Below are positions 8,419 through 14,166 of a stretch of DNA of 38,853 nucleotides, one piece after another (position 1 is the first letter of the stretch; each line of letters opens with the position of its first letter). A program made the translations under genes and the position numbers. The notes below the pieces were generated by a model. It worked only from the letters and a program-made list of their open reading frames with translations. It was not told the DNA's origin and made no database searches. This DNA is from Clostridiaceae bacterium (GTDB lineage: Bacteria > Bacillota > Clostridia > Saccharofermentanales > UBA5734). Location: the NCBI GenBank assembly GCA_012520975.1, contig JAAYNF010000015.1, positions 1 to 38,853 of the forward strand. The letters are read 5' to 3'.

Positions 8419-9076
8419 AAACCGGACATCCACCGGAAGGGTCAATGCATTGTTTCGTCGGATGGCCCGTGCTGTCGCTTGGCTCTATATTCGGCTCTTT
8501 TACCGTCTGTCTTTTACGGGTTTGGAGAATGTTCCGGCCGGCGGCCCGGCAATCTTGGTGGCCAACCACACCGGCGGCGGAGATATTCTGGCGATTCACA
8601 CGGCAATCAAGCCTTGGATTCATTGGGTGGCCAAAAAAGAGTTGTTTAAGCATAAATTGTTCGGGACGGTCCTTTTAAAGCTCGGCTGCATACCCGTCGA
8701 CCGTAAAAAGGCCGACTTAACAGCGGCCCGCGAGATCGTTTCTGCTCTGCGCAACAACCAGATCGTCGGTGTCTTTCCCCAAGCAACGCGGGTTCGCCCC
8801 GATCGCATTCCATACGTCGTTCCGCACAGCGGCGCGATTCGTTTTGCCATTAAAACCGAATCCCCCATCCTACCGGTTGGTATCAGTGCTCCCTTTCGGC
8901 TCGGCGGCAGCGTTCGTATCGTATTTGGAAAGCCGATTAATCTGAGGATGCCTGCCGACAGCCTTAATGATGCCGACCTGATCGATGGTTTGGCCGTTGA
9001 TGTGATGCGAAAGGTTTACGCGTTGGTCGGCTATGATTATCAATTGGTCGATCAAAAGGGAGGGGCGCCGTCATGA
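8408..9076 (+). CDS. plsC: 1-acyl-sn-glycerol-3-phosphate acyltransferase
   Basis: Predicted to add the second acyl chain in phosphatidic acid synthesis at the membrane. The protein is 222 residues with the HX4D catalytic motif NHTGGGD (His54, Asp59), motif II GCIPVDR (93-99) and motif IV LPVGI. Motif III, normally FPEGTR, reads FPQATR (123-128), replacing both Glu and Gly. A hydrophobic stretch lies around residues 19-35. The open frame runs back to 8267 inside cmk, but the ATG at 8408 has an AAGGGA ribosome site and gives normal length. It overlaps cmk by 11 bases and ispH-S1 by four bases (ATGA). Confidence 0.9.
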   Translation: MSRENRTSTGRVNALFRRMARAVAWLYIRLFYRLSFTGLENVPAGGPAILVANHTGGGDILAIHTAIKPWIHWVAKKELFKHKLFGTVLLKLGCIPVDRKKADLTAAREIVSALRNNQIVGVFPQATRVRPDRIPYVVPHSGAIRFAIKTESPILPVGISAPFRLGGSVRIVFGKPINLRMPADSLNDADLIDGLAVDVMRKVYALVGYDYQLVDQKGGAPS

Positions 9077-11400
9077 AGATCATTCTGGCTCGTACATCCG
9101 GATTCTGCTTCGGCGTCAAACATGCCGTGGACACGGCCTATCGATTATCCGAACCGGGACAACAAGCTGATCAACCCCCCATTTATATGTTGGGCGAACT
9201 GATTCACAACCGTCAGATTGTCGAAGAACTCAAAGAGCGGGGACTTCTTTTGGCTGAGCAAGAAGATGATATTCCGAGCGGATCGCGAGTCTTGATTCGA
9301 GCCCACGGCGTCCCGCCGGCAACCATTTGCAAGCTTAAAGACCAAGATTGCCGGATTACCGACTGTACCTGCCCATTTGTCACCAAGATCCATCAAATCG
9401 TCAGACAGGCCTGGCAGCAGGGCAAACAAATCATTATTGCCGGAACTCCGATTCATCCGGAGGTCGTCGGGATCAACGGTGAGTGCGAAAACAGCGCGCT
9501 TATCCTTGAGACAACCGAACAGGCCGAAAGGGTGAATGTTGCTACGGGCGATTGGATTTTGGTCGCCCAAACAACCTTTTCATTTAATGAATATAAAAAA
9601 ATAAGTCAAGTTCTTAAGAAACAAATTGCAAAATTGAAGATATTTGATACAATATGTAGTACGACTGAAAACAGGCAAAAGGAAGCCCTCGAGATTGCCG
9701 AGCAGGTCGATACCATGTTGGTTATCGGCAGTTCGCGTAGCTCGAACACCATCAAGCTTCTGGAAATTTGCCGAGGTCGTTGTGCCGACACGCATCTGAT
9801 TGAACAACCTGACCAAGTCAGGACGCTTCTTGGAGAGCGATCACTGAAAGGTCGAACGGTGGGCATTACAGCTGGGGCGTCGACACCAGAACGTATAATC
9901 AGGGAGGTTATCCAAACAATGACGGAGAACGACGGTTTGCAGAACCAGCAAGAACAGGTTGATGTCAGCTTTTCAGATTTCATCGACAACATCCCTCATT
10001 TAAAAAGAGGAGCGATCGTGAAGGGAACCATTATCCGCTATGATGATGATACCGTTTATGTCGACGTGCGCGATAAATCTGAGGGAAGGATTCCTCGCCA
10101 TGAGTTTGATGGCGATCCGGATTTTGATCTGGACCGAGCCATTGAGGATCATGTTGAAATCGATGTCTATGTCCGCAACATTCGCAATTCGGACATGGGC
10201 AAGGAAATCAGCCTTTCCAAAGCCCGAGTCGATTTCGGCAAATATAAGGCTCTGATTGAAGAGGCTTACAATGAAAAAACACCGATTAACGTTAAGATCG
10301 TTAATGTGGTCAAAGATGGTGTTATCGCGACCTACGGCGGTGTTGACATCTACGTTCATCGCACCCAGCTTGAAATGGGCATTGTCGATGATCTTGAGCC
10401 CTACAGGGGACAGACGATGGACATTCTGGTCACCCAGTATGATCCGGATCGGCGCCGCCTCAGGGTTTCCGGTTCCCGCCGGGCCCTGCTGTCGATCGAG
10501 CGAAAAGCCAAAGCAGAGGAATTATGGCAGACCATTGAGATCGGTAAGGAATATGATGGAATTGTTCGCAGCCTGACCGATTTCGGCGCTTTTGTCGATA
10601 TCGGAGGCGTAGACGGTTTGGTGCATATATCCGAACTTTCCTGGAATCGGATTCGTCACCCATCCGAAGTGGTTAATGTCGGTGATGAAATCCATGTTTT
10701 TGTCAAGGATTTCGATGCGGAACGCAAGCGTATTTCTCTAGGCTATAAGCGCCCGGAGAACGACCCGTACCGTGATGTTGAAAACCGGTTCCCGGTGGGC
10801 TCCATCGTGCACGGTATCGTTGTCCGGATGTTCCCGTTCGGTGCTTTCGTTGAGATTGCGCCCGGTGTTGATGCCCTTTGTCATATTTCACAGATCGCCA
10901 ACGTCAGACTGGCAAAGCCCAATGATGTTTTGGCGGAAGGCATGGAGATCTATGCTCGCGTTCTGGAAGTGAGCAATGAGGCCCGTCGGATCAGCATCAG
11001 CATCAAAGAGGTTGAGCCCATCAATCCTGTCGGATATGGAGATTCCGATGCGCCCACGACCTATCAGGATACCTTTGATCAAGTGGTGACCGAAGATCTG
11101 ATCGAAACCGCGGCTGCCAGCGAAGGCGAGGCTGCCGCAAGCGGCGCAGCGGTCGAAGAAGCCGCCGAAGACGTCGCTGAGCCGACCGAGATCGCCACCG
11201 CTGAAGAAGCCGCCGAAGACGTCGCTGGGCCGACCGAGATCGCCACCGTCGAAGAAGCCGCCGAAGACGTCGCTGAGCCGACCGAGATCGCCACCGCCGA
11301 AGAAGCCGCCGAAGACGTCGCTGAGCCGACCGAGATCGCCGCCGAAGACGTCGCTGGGCCGACCGAGACCGCCGCCGAAGAAGAAGAGAAAACAGAGTAA
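9073..11400 (+). CDS. ispH: IspH (LytB) fused to ribosomal protein S1
   Basis: One 775-residue frame joins two activities. Residues 1 to about 283 are 4-hydroxy-3-methylbut-2-enyl diphosphate reductase, the last MEP-pathway enzyme; its three iron-sulfur cysteines are visible at Cys12 (FCFGVKHAV), Cys100 (CTCPF) and Cys195 (ICSTTENRQ). From about residue 308 there are four S1 RNA-binding repeats, of which the third (DFGAFVDIGGVDGLVHISEL) and fourth (FPFGAFVEIAPGVDALCHISQI) are the most canonical. From about residue 695 there is an acidic repeat tail. The fusion is known from Clostridia, where the S1 part is thought to act as S1 protein; whether it is cleaved or separately translated is not known here. 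It starts within the plsC stop (ATGA overlap) and is followed by a strong terminator. An AT-rich island and an internal SD/ATG lie near the junction. Confidence 0.95.
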   Translation: MKIILARTSGFCFGVKHAVDTAYRLSEPGQQADQPPIYMLGELIHNRQIVEELKERGLLLAEQEDDIPSGSRVLIRAHGVPPATICKLKDQDCRITDCTCPFVTKIHQIVRQAWQQGKQIIIAGTPIHPEVVGINGECENSALILETTEQAERVNVATGDWILVAQTTFSFNEYKKISQVLKKQIAKLKIFDTICSTTENRQKEALEIAEQVDTMLVIGSSRSSNTIKLLEICRGRCADTHLIEQPDQVRTLLGERSLKGRTVGITAGASTPERIIREVIQTMTENDGLQNQQEQVDVSFSDFIDNIPHLKRGAIVKGTIIRYDDDTVYVDVRDKSEGRIPRHEFDGDPDFDLDRAIEDHVEIDVYVRNIRNSDMGKEISLSKARVDFGKYKALIEEAYNEKTPINVKIVNVVKDGVIATYGGVDIYVHRTQLEMGIVDDLEPYRGQTMDILVTQYDPDRRRLRVSGSRRALLSIERKAKAEELWQTIEIGKEYDGIVRSLTDFGAFVDIGGVDGLVHISELSWNRIRHPSEVVNVGDEIHVFVKDFDAERKRISLGYKRPENDPYRDVENRFPVGSIVHGIVVRMFPFGAFVEIAPGVDALCHISQIANVRLAKPNDVLAEGMEIYARVLEVSNEARRISISIKEVEPINPVGYGDSDAPTTYQDTFDQVVTEDLIETAAASEGEAAASGAAVEEAAEDVAEPTEIATAEEAAEDVAGPTEIATVEEAAEDVAEPTEIATAEEAAEDVAEPTEIAAEDVAGPTETAAEEEEKTE
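9626..9653 (+). promoter_or_regulatory. Possible internal promoter inside ispH, upstream of the S1 part
   Basis: TTGCAA (9626-9631) and TACAAT (9648-9653) are separated by 16 bases and lie inside an AT-rich island: only 16 of the 80 bases at 9581-9660 are G or C. It is about 270 bases upstream of an internal ATG that would begin a free S1 protein. Chance occurrence in AT-rich codons is a real alternative. Confidence 0.3.
9903..9921 (+). promoter_or_regulatory. Possible internal ribosome site and start codon for a free S1 protein
   Basis: GGAGG (9903-9907) is followed after 11 bases by an in-frame ATG (9919-9921), exactly at the border between the IspH domain and the S1 domains (residue 283). 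Initiation here would give a 493-residue S1 protein beginning MTENDG. The spacing is longer than ideal. Confidence 0.35.
11155..11390 (+). repeat. 48-bp tandem repeats encoding the acidic tail of the S1 fusion
   Basis: Three full 48-bp units (11155-11202, 11203-11250, 11251-11298), a 42-bp unit (11299-11340) and a partial unit (from 11341) encode copies of EEAAEDVAEPTEIATA with few changes (AEP or AGP, ATA or ATV). The near-identity at DNA level suggests recent expansion or homogenisation by slippage or unequal recombination. Confidence 0.92.
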
Positions 11401-11422: not shown

Positions 11423-11456
11423 AAACCGCCGCCAACAATTTGCGCGGCGGTTTTTT
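11423..11456 (+). terminator. Intrinsic terminator after ispH-S1
   Basis: AAACCGCCGC (11423-11432) pairs with GCGGCGGTTT (11444-11453), with an 11-base loop and a T run (11451-11456). It lies 22 bases after the ispH-S1 stop and touches the stop codon of the convergent acetyltransferase gene. On the minus strand the same stem is followed by only a short T run, so it may also stop the convergent transcript, less efficiently. Confidence 0.9.
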
Positions 11457-12585
11457 ATTCAAAGCAACGAAAGTCTGATTTGAGCAGGGCCAAGCGGAGG
11501 ACGTCTTTCCAAGATCCGCCGTGATAAAGTCCTTGCCGATCGATGCCCTCTTCTCGGAAACCAAGTAATTTCAAGAGGCGAAGACTTTGCCGGTTCCCTT
11601 GGATGCAACGGGCGGTTATTCGGTTGAGCCGATAGTCGGCAAAAAGCCAAGCAATCACACTGGACAACACTTCCGGCATCAAACCCCGTCCGCTGAGCAA
11701 CCGATCGATGGAGAAGCCAATTTCACAACTGGAATAAGGAAAGGGTTTTATTTTTTGGCAGGTAATGTGGCCGGCCAGCCAATCCGGACGTTCCGGCCAG
11801 AAAAGCAAAAAATCCTGTTGTTGACCGCGGGCTTGAGCCGCCAGACCATCAAAGACATAACGATGCCAGCTCGGGAATTCATTGGAATCGCCCGACCTAG
11901 GAACATTCCAGCGCTCAATATGATCCTTGTTTCGTCGGTAATAATCATCCAGCAGGGAAATGTGCATGGGCTGGAGCGCACAGATATTAAGTTTGCCGGA
12001 TCCGGCGGGCGGCGTCGGCGATTGTTTAGGGCGATCGTCGGCCAAACGGACATAATGAAGGTGATCCTGCCAACGGTTGTTGATTTTCAGATAACGAGGC
12101 GACAGCCCCTCACAGCGGAAGCCAAGTCTTTCGGCCAATGCAATGGACCGGCTGTTGGTCGGCATGATACTGGCCTGGGCCCGATGCAGGCGAAAATCTT
12201 CAAACAGCACACGAATCGCTGCCTGCCCCGCCTCCAGCGCAAGACCGTTGCCTTGGACAGCCTGATCCAGATGATAGGCGGTGCGGCAGGAGCGAAGACA
12301 ACCGTAGATTATGTCGGTGAAAGCGAACCGGCCGATGATTCTATCGGGTTCATTCCGGCGGAAAAGCCAGAAAGGCAGTGCCCGGCCGGCCAAAAAGCCG
12401 GCATACTCATCGGCTAGATCGGCCTTTTGCTCTTCCAGACGGAAAACCTGATCGTTGCGGGCGGCAAACCAAGGCTGATGAAAAGACCGATTGCGAACAT
12501 AATAATCAAGAACAGCGGGAGCTGCCGAGCTATCCAAGATGCGCAGCTGCAGGCGCGATGTATTAAGCGCAAAGTGATCAGTCAT
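11455..12585 (-). CDS. Tandem-domain GNAT acetyltransferase (two RimJ/RimL-like domains)
   Basis: Predicted acetyl-CoA-dependent N-acetyltransferase of 376 residues built from two GNAT domains joined by a Pro-rich linker (about 183-197). Domain 1 (about 10-182) has the acetyl-CoA loop QGNGLA (111-116) and the NSRSIALAERLGFRCEG helix. Domain 2 (about 198-370) has SGRGLM (298-303) and NRQSLRLLKLLGFREEG. Both copies keep the pyrophosphate-binding loop and the C-terminal LGF motif of the RimJ/RimL branch, so both may be active; they have diverged strongly. RimJ/RimL relatives acetylate N-termini of ribosomal proteins, but many homologues act on small molecules, so the substrate is open. The start at 12585 overlaps the upstream gene's stop by eight bases (ATGACTGA). 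Longer upstream frame is read-through of that gene. Confidence 0.87.
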   Translation of the reverse strand: MTDHFALNTSRLQLRILDSSAAPAVLDYYVRNRSFHQPWFAARNDQVFRLEEQKADLADEYAGFLAGRALPFWLFRRNEPDRIIGRFAFTDIIYGCLRSCRTAYHLDQAVQGNGLALEAGQAAIRVLFEDFRLHRAQASIMPTNSRSIALAERLGFRCEGLSPRYLKINNRWQDHLHYVRLADDRPKQSPTPPAGSGKLNICALQPMHISLLDDYYRRNKDHIERWNVPRSGDSNEFPSWHRYVFDGLAAQARGQQQDFLLFWPERPDWLAGHITCQKIKPFPYSSCEIGFSIDRLLSGRGLMPEVLSSVIAWLFADYRLNRITARCIQGNRQSLRLLKLLGFREEGIDRQGLYHGGSWKDVLRLALLKSDFRCFE

Positions 12586-13147
12586 GCGTTGCGTCCGGAT
12601 CGGCTTTGGGCCGGTCATCGACAGCATCGACAGATTCATCATCCGTCGCCGCCGAATCGTAATCGTTTTCTTCTTCGCAATCGTTGCTCCCCACAAAATC
12701 TGTCGGTTCTTGATCCAAACACGTGGGATGGAGATGACAGTACAGGCCATGATAAAGCCCTTTGCTTTTGGCCGGATCACCGCAAACGGCGCAGGCATCG
12801 GCAGGCAGATCGCCAAGCGACATCATGCCCGATATCTGTCCCAAAATGTAGGCCATCCTGTCGGTGGTCAACGGCAGCAACCCTTCACGGATTCGAACAC
12901 AGAGAAAATTATCCGCAAAGTCGTAGTTGCGAAGGCGAAGCACATCAAAATTCTCATCCAGAAACCGGATCAAGCTTTGCAAAGCATCAGGGCTGATTCC
13001 GGCTAGGGAAGTGATGAATGCTTTGAAACGTTTTCCCTCCAAACCGGTGAACAGATAACCGTTGTATTCGCCAAATACGGTTTGTTCATCGGCATGAACT
13101 TTCCAATCATTATCTCTGGCCAGTTTTATCAATTGTGCAGACAACAT
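12578..13147 (-). CDS. Hypothetical protein with a Cys/His cluster and acidic C-terminal tail
   Basis: I do not recognise this family. The 189-residue protein has a mixed N-terminal part (1-115, e.g. DNDWKVHADEQTVFGEYNG), then a cluster of possible metal ligands: CAVC (119, 122), Cys137, His138, His140 and Cys143 (YCHLHPTC). It ends in a strongly acidic tail (about 157-189). There is no signal peptide or membrane segment. The cluster resembles a small zinc-binding knuckle, but this is inference. The start at 13147 is chosen because the minus-strand sequence carries AAAGGAGA just upstream; the frame continues to 13207. It is probably cotranscribed with the tandem acetyltransferase through an eight-base overlap, hinting at a joint role. 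Confidence 0.75.
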   Translation of the reverse strand: MLSAQLIKLARDNDWKVHADEQTVFGEYNGYLFTGLEGKRFKAFITSLAGISPDALQSLIRFLDENFDVLRLRNYDFADNFLCVRIREGLLPLTTDRMAYILGQISGMMSLGDLPADACAVCGDPAKSKGLYHGLYCHLHPTCLDQEPTDFVGSNDCEEENDYDSAATDDESVDAVDDRPKADPDATHD

Positions 13148-13196
13148 ACGGTTCTCCTTTGCCATCCACAGGTGGTTTGTTATTGGTAACATGACC

Positions 13197-13225
13197 ATTA
13201 TAAACATTTTTTCCGGATTTGTATG
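13197..13225 (-). promoter_or_regulatory. Probable promoter of the minus-strand two-gene island
   Basis: On the minus strand a perfect TATAAT lies at 13202-13197, about 50 bases before the start codon at 13147. The sequence 17 bases further upstream is CATACA, a weak -35. Confidence 0.5.
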
Positions 13226-13328: not shown

Positions 13329-13378
13329 ACGGGTGGCATGACCTGTTGTCGATCGATCAGATCCGCGGTAGCCCGTGG
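13329..13378 (+). promoter_or_regulatory. Candidate structured leader of rpsB with alternative pairings
   Basis: CCGCGG (13363-13368) can form a hairpin with CCGTGG (13373-13378, one G-U pair, four-base loop). ACGGGT (13329-13334) can instead pair with GCCCGT (13371-13376, one G-U pair). The two helices share 13373-13376 and exclude each other. In E. coli S2 represses its own mRNA leader; a similar role here is inference. Confidence 0.35.
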
Positions 13379-13404
13379 CGGAAAAAAACAGGAGGAAACC
13401 ATCA

Positions 13405-14166
13405 ATGGCTGTGATCAGCATGAAACAACTACTCGAAGCAGGTGTTCACTTTGGGCACCAGACCCGCCGTTGGAACCCCAAGATGGCGGAGTACATTTAC
13501 ACCGAACGAAATGGCATTTACATCATTGATCTGCAAAAGACGGTCCGGAAGATCGAAGAAGCATATATGGCGGTTCGTCATATTGCCATGAACGGTGGTA
13601 CGGTGCTTTTTGTCGGCACCAAGAAACAAGCTCAGGATTCAATTCGAGAAGAGGCCGAACGTTGCGGGATGTATTTCATCAACAACCGCTGGCTGGGCGG
13701 AACCTTGACCAATTTCGAAACCATCCGCAAGCGGATCAAACGTCTTGAGGAATTGACCACAATGCAGGAAAACGGTACTTTTGAAATCCTGCCCAAAAAA
13801 GAAGTGGCCAAGCTCAAGCTGGAAATGGATAAGCTTGAGAAGAATCTCGGCGGCATCAAGGATATGGACCGGCTGCCTTCCTGTGTGTTTGTCGTCGACC
13901 CGCGCAAGGAACACATCGCGGTCCGGGAGGCCCGGCGCCTAGGTATTCCGATTGTCGGCATTGTCGATACCAACTGCGATCCGGACGAGATTGATTTCAT
14001 CATTCCCGGCAACGACGATGCCATCCGCGCGGTCAAGCTGATCGCCGGGAAAATAGCCGACGCCGTGATCGAAGGTCGGCAGGGCGAGCAATTTGAAGCC
14101 GATGAGGACGATGACGAAGCTGCCGATGATGAAGCCGTCGGCGTCGACGAGGAAGAAGCTGACTAA
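13405..14166 (+). CDS. rpsB: 30S ribosomal protein S2
   Basis: S2 sits at the back of the 30S head-platform junction and is needed for S1 binding to the subunit. The protein is 253 residues with the family motifs [40 protein letters not shown], and the late [23 protein letters not shown] segment. The C-terminus has an extra, almost purely acidic tail (from about residue 230). The ATG at 13405 follows a perfect AGGAGG (13390-13395). The open frame runs back to 13375, but without a suitable ribosome site. It is followed by tsf, the standard order. Confidence 0.97.

Follow-up and report, generated by a model that had tools for sequence, protein, structure and literature searches.

The window, a 38,853-nt stretch of DNA from a Clostridiaceae bacterium, carries two minus-strand genes in the gap between an IspH-S1 fusion gene (9073–11400, plus strand) and the S2 gene (13375–14166, plus strand). 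They encode a 189-residue Cys/His protein, hereafter termed ZnDom, and a 376-residue tandem GNAT acetyltransferase. The initial annotation had described the pair as the only minus-strand genes of the window; both ORFs were confirmed, and this description seems to fit, as the other long minus-strand ORFs overlap longer plus-strand ORFs. The locus comprises the following features:

13197..13202, minus strand: TATAAT, possible -10 box of the island (weak)
13154..13158, minus strand: Shine-Dalgarno sequence AGGAG of ZnDom
12578..13147, minus strand: ZnDom gene, 189 aa, Cys/His protein with a predicted YbjN/T3SC-like domain and a putative zinc ribbon
12803..13147, minus strand: ZnDom core fold, residues 1–115, H-EEEE-H-EE-H in the AlphaFold2 model, with fold matches spanning residues 1–115/126
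12719..12793, minus strand: putative zinc-ribbon motif C119xxC122-x14-C137xxH140xxC143 (CX2C-X14-CX2HX2C)
12581..12703, minus strand: acidic tail, residues 149–189, predicted to be disordered
12578..12585, minus strand: overlap of the ZnDom and GNAT genes, 8 nt, ATGACTGA
11455..12585, minus strand: tandem GNAT gene, 376 aa
12034..12585, minus strand: GNAT domain 1, residues 1–184, RimJ-like
12238..12255, minus strand: acetyl-CoA loop of domain 1, QGNGLA, residues 111–116
11464..11997, minus strand: GNAT domain 2, residues 197–374, with a PF00583 stretch at residues 240–343
11677..11694, minus strand: acetyl-CoA loop of domain 2, SGRGLM, residues 298–303
11423..11453, unstranded: hairpin between the converging GNAT and IspH-S1 genes

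The eight-base overlap that had been noted between the two genes is real, and the same overlap is found in the sister species G001. As G001 is a separate assembly with an identical junction, misassembly of the window was rejected. Homologues of both genes in many genomes, together with dN/dS values of 0.08–0.15 against the sister species, place the ORF pair beyond chance. Judged from the sequence, the Shine-Dalgarno element supports the ATG at 13147 as the start of ZnDom, whereas the TATAAT is a weak candidate for a -10 box because the promoter scan did not report it. The hairpin (-20 and -19.4 kcal/mol, z -2.6 and -4.0), with a T-run on the plus strand, is likely a two-way terminator that would work best on the plus strand. 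No Rfam RNA family was found in the window. In the C-terminal end of IspH-S1 (11154–11381, plus strand), a 48-bp unit occurs four times (95% match) alongside related 33-bp units, encoding repeated EEAAEDVAEPTEIAT; S1 is shorter in G001 (763 aa) than in the window (775 aa).

The CxxC, the C/H cluster and the acidic tail by which the small protein was originally characterized are all present. Residues C119, C122, H140 and C143 are invariant in 29 aligned ZnDom sequences and C137 is kept in 28 of them, a pattern that suggests zinc binding by the motif. ZnDom matched no family in Pfam, NCBIfam or PADLOC, and PDB sequence searches with ZnDom alone and as a profile returned chance matches only. Two zinc-ribbon candidates were set aside: the Pfam family Zn_ribbon_TiaS fell below the cut-off (E 0.2), and a Zn_ribbon_NUD match in 2 of 29 members (best E 0.0026) was read as generic zinc-ribbon likeness. 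Of the two proteins, profile searches thus placed the GNAT, with matches to NF008072 and PF00583, and found no family for the Cys/His protein. ZnDom is a new, uncatalogued bacterial domain without a Pfam or NCBIfam model.

The AlphaFold2 model of ZnDom, with pLDDT values of 94–98 (ten-residue block means) through residue 140, has the H-EEEE-H-EE-H core; two short strands and one helix come next, at the position of the Cys/His motif. Structural similarity search using Foldseek ranked E. coli YbjN (6vu7) first, with an E of 5e-4, a probability of 1.00, 16% identity and a TM-score of 0.32–0.42, followed by the class I type III secretion chaperones (T3SCs) and AmyR; the entry 1xkp gave TM-scores of 0.43/0.59. 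VIA-align gave a modest score for SycT (Z 8.7, rmsd 2.9 over 102 residues), and the top rows of the fold search, modest in score as well, are nearly all of one fold. The model thus lends modest support to a YbjN/class-I-T3SC-like α/β fold of the α-β(3–4)-α-β2-α type, with Z values of 8–9 that lie near the level a common arrangement can give. This fold would be shared with YbjN/AmyR/DR1245 and the class I T3SCs SycT, Spa15 and CesT over ZnDom residues 1–115 to 126, and catalytic residues are not evident in ZnDom, as in these proteins. YbjN/AmyR proteins are thought to act via protein-protein interaction without enzymatic activity (PMC5398634), and DR1245 binds DdrB (PMC3575483). By contrast, ZnDom has no detectable sequence similarity to them: no YbjN or class I T3SC profile matched any of the 29 members at E<=0.1 in Pfam, and none appeared in the PDB profile search. 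ZnDom also differs in its extra C-terminal zinc ribbon and acidic tail, in its fusion to or operon with a dipeptidase, and in showing no sign of a type III secretion role.

The AlphaFold2 model of the 376-aa protein (mean pLDDT 81) predicts two complete GNAT folds. Domain 1 matches the S5-alanine model NF008072 with an E of 3e-48 and 164 bits, under the cut-off of 190, and its modelled fold aligns with Vibrio fischeri RimJ (3igr) at Z 27.0, with an rmsd of 1.4 over 179 aligned residues. MccE, a microcin C immunity GNAT that acts on microcin C like RimL, follows at Z 23.9, below RimJ and RimL. Domain 2 resembles the N-acetyltransferase PA3270 (8gxj; Z 21.4, rmsd 2.3, 175 aligned). Both acetyl-CoA loops are conserved across the aligned tandem homologues, and in the model neither domain appears to lack the pocket at the level of fold and loop, in agreement with the two RimJ/RimL-like domains recognized in the initial annotation. 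Like RimJ (S5-alanine) and RimL (L12-serine), each half is predicted to be a complete GNAT with an acetyl-CoA loop, domain 1 being nearest RimJ; unlike them, the protein has two domains per chain and scores below the equivalog cut-off. Two GNAT domains per chain are also found in Eis and the type V tandem GNATs (PMC8556138). Compared to these, the window protein lacks a C-terminal third domain, as domain 2 reaches residue 374 of 376, and both of its domains are RimJ/RimL-like with intact acetyl-CoA loops. In a GNAT tree of family f1 only, all second domains form one group, and the tandem fusion therefore probably had a single origin in the family. In genus g9 the single-domain GNATs cluster with domain 1 of the tandem proteins and have probably lost domain 2.

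ZnDom homologues were detected in 46 of the order's 188 genomes. Relatives with named records are metagenome-assembled genomes labelled Clostridiaceae, Clostridiales, Oscillospiraceae, Eubacteriales or Mageeibacillus. A 12-row alignment was used for the contig pattern scan, and ZnDom, M20, GNAT, S1 and S2 were assigned by similarity; automatic gene calling picked some ORFs wrongly at high-GC loci. Of the 29 order loci with readable flanks, 27 have ZnDom either fused to the N-terminus of a Sapep dipeptidase (PepV-type M20) or immediately next to one; these 27 span families f1, f3 and f4 and sit mostly in the S1–S2 gap; the two exceptions are the window species and G001. Four representative island M20s, in fused and separate forms, score 377–412 bits against the Sapep model TIGR01887 (cut-off 208), so that the island enzyme of the relatives is a full Sapep/PepV Mn2+-dependent dipeptidase. 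The Sapeps examined elsewhere in the class, unlike the island form, are open frames of ~440–590 aa without ZnDom. We found no paper on Sapep with rpsA and rpsB, or on YbjN with a zinc ribbon. The island is inverted to the S1 strand, its position behind S1 being kept, at L065, L067 and L076 (genus g13) and at L070 and L071 (genus g5). In g5 a further gene follows ZnDom-Sapep (L070:8687-9625, L071:7976-8875), and in L070 this gene encodes a lipid kinase of the YegS/BmrU type (TIGR00147, 221 bits).

As third gene of the island the GNAT is optional, being located behind the dipeptidase in some genera only. It lies 16–21 nt behind the fused ZnDom::M20 in G011 and G004 and comes next after the M20 in G022, G018 and G009; the RimJ-like GNAT that follows the Sapep gene has the tandem form in g4 and the single-domain form in g9. 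In G003 it lies ~1.1 kb behind a Sapep and there is no ZnDom; a ZnDom remnant at the N-terminus of this Sapep was considered, and none was seen. About 100 genomes of f2, another family of the order, have a RimJ-like GNAT and no ZnDom gene, and the GNAT therefore needs no ZnDom in general. Direct neighbourhood of ZnDom and GNAT, which would be expected across Clostridia of a dedicated pair, is found in this genus only.

The bond between ZnDom and Sapep is likewise not obligatory, as seen from both sides. In the one-contig genome G025 (family f4), a Sapep (L170:6308-7660) is kept beside IspH-S1 and ZnDom is absent, the mirror image of the loss in the window. Distant ZnDom relatives were found in seven genomes beyond the order, in a sample of the class; in these proteins (L112–L118; 314–347 aa) the domain precedes a membrane region at the C-terminus, and the genes nearby are, for example, oxaloacetate decarboxylase beta-like or enolase. 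No Sapep was found within 1.5 kb of the relatives outside the order, and three of them, when scanned, gave no Pfam family above cut-off. Within the order, G007 has a ZnDom with membrane helices, and the Sapep gene is still next to it.

No M20 gene lies between ZnDom and GNAT in the window or in G001, and in these two only. The overlap of ZnDom and GNAT marks the very site that the Sapep gene or fused Sapep domain takes in relatives, and ZnDom abuts GNAT because the island Sapep is missing, while the CxxC...CxxHxxC ligands are present. The acidic tail (18 D/E and 2 K/R in 46 residues) matches the position of the ZnDom-Sapep linker in fused relatives, several of whose linkers are acidic, and may thus be the former linker. 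The window genome has a sole Sapep, on contig C77 (3981–5387), next to genes named by eye from sequence as membrane pyrophosphatase-like and peroxiredoxin-like. In a maximum-likelihood tree of 59 rows, this Sapep and its G001 orthologue cluster (100/93) among Sapeps from other families of the class, whereas the 28 island Sapeps are placed apart from it, with four other Sapeps of the class (100/99). The tree rejects the C77 Sapep as a relocated island copy: the two lie on separate sides, which means that the island copy did not move but was lost. At ~96% completeness the window assembly is a draft, and a second Sapep could therefore be missing from it.

Selection on the remaining genes was assessed from dN/dS between the window genome and G001. 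The values are 0.14 for the ZnDom core and 0.18 for its tail, 0.08 and 0.15 for GNAT domains 1 and 2, and, for comparison, 0.13 for IspH-S1 and 0.03 for S2. A dN/dS of ~0.14 indicates that ZnDom is under purifying selection and hence functional. That ZnDom is a decaying remnant of the former fusion, as the departure of its enzyme partner from the island might suggest, is strongly disfavoured by this value and by the intact zinc ligands, the good ribosome-binding site and the same layout in two species.

Taking together the computed gene layout, fusion partners, loss, other-branch Sapep, purifying selection and folds, we consider it probable that the pair is a reduced [ZnDom]-[Sapep]-([GNAT]) island. 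The conserved island between IspH-S1 and S2 consists of ZnDom, a Sapep/PepV-type M20 dipeptidase and, optionally, a RimJ-like GNAT of one or two domains. ZnDom would normally serve as a non-enzymatic adaptor of the dipeptidase, linked to it covalently or by operon, which might dimerize and have a peptide or a protein as its binding partner. The dipeptidase of the island has been lost in this genus, and a Sapep of another family branch lies elsewhere in the genome; ZnDom has been retained under selection, and the GNAT gene that would formerly have followed the dipeptidase now overlaps it. ZnDom may now work in trans, its partner being the Sapep on C77, the GNAT or both of them, and the whole ZnDom-Sapep-GNAT unit may handle peptide N-termini. 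PepV of Staphylococcus aureus is reported to bind SecA and to change its oligomers and activity in response to signal peptides (PMC12004944, PMC12671168); by analogy, a peptide-sensing module on Sapep is plausible.

A less probable course of events is that, once the dipeptidase was lost, ZnDom came to serve the tandem GNAT as its dedicated adaptor and presents it with peptides or proteins to be acetylated at the N-terminus. This would be the pair of the initial annotation, but as a derived state of one genus. The overlap in both species, the purifying selection on both genes after the loss, and the presence of the GNAT in the same operon in g4 and g9 are all consistent with such a switch. However, the overlap can be a by-product of the deletion, and GNATs of the same kind do without ZnDom in about 100 f2 genomes. 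Moreover, the ZnDom stem branch of this genus (g1) has a length of 0.39, modestly above the 0.24 and 0.21 of the sister genera g6 and g9, giving no sign of a drastic change of partner.

An improbable reading assigns the island to peptide detoxification or capping, in which Sapep would cut and GNAT would acetylate small toxic peptides or aminoacyl-nucleotides, ZnDom being the peptide-binding module. It would explain a dipeptidase and an N-acetyltransferase in one unit. Microcin C is an acetylation substrate of RimL (PMC8556138), and MccE is among the fold matches of domain 1, so small peptides are as reasonable a substrate class for the GNAT as ribosomal proteins. Against this reading, domain 1 scores lower with MccE than with RimJ and RimL, the island has no recognized transporter or peptide-antibiotic gene, and PADLOC gave no match.

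The initial annotation put forward a ribosome-linked modification pair, in which the GNAT would acetylate N-termini of ribosomal proteins with the help of the Cys/His protein; we regard it, too, as improbable. Domain 1 is nearest RimJ in sequence and fold, and many genera have the island in the S1–S2 gap. RimJ acetylates the N-terminal Ala of S5. The S5 of the window genome begins with Met-His (MHIDPS, behind GGAGG) and so lacks this Ala, which, as far as sequence goes, argues against S5-alanine acetylation by the window GNAT, as does its score under the NCBIfam cut-off. L12 (MAS-) and S18 (MAE-) could expose Ala, so a ribosomal substrate is possible, though not supported. The notion of a dedicated pair is not supported, as the small protein elsewhere goes with Sapep and many f2 genomes have the GNAT and no ZnDom gene. 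The S1–S2 location is the conserved position of the whole island and no evidence of a ribosomal role.

As an uncatalogued domain, ZnDom would give Sapep/PepV dipeptidases an accessory module. More speculatively, and with low probability, ZnDom could represent a new class of zinc-ribbon YbjN/T3SC-like adaptors that guide peptide-end enzymes, dipeptidase or N-acetyltransferase, or tether them to the membrane, here caught switching enzyme after deletion of the fusion partner. A built-in chaperone-like module on Sapep would make the regulation of a peptidase by bound peptides directly testable, and this genus, which lacks the island enzyme, offers a natural deletion in which the role of ZnDom by itself can be examined.
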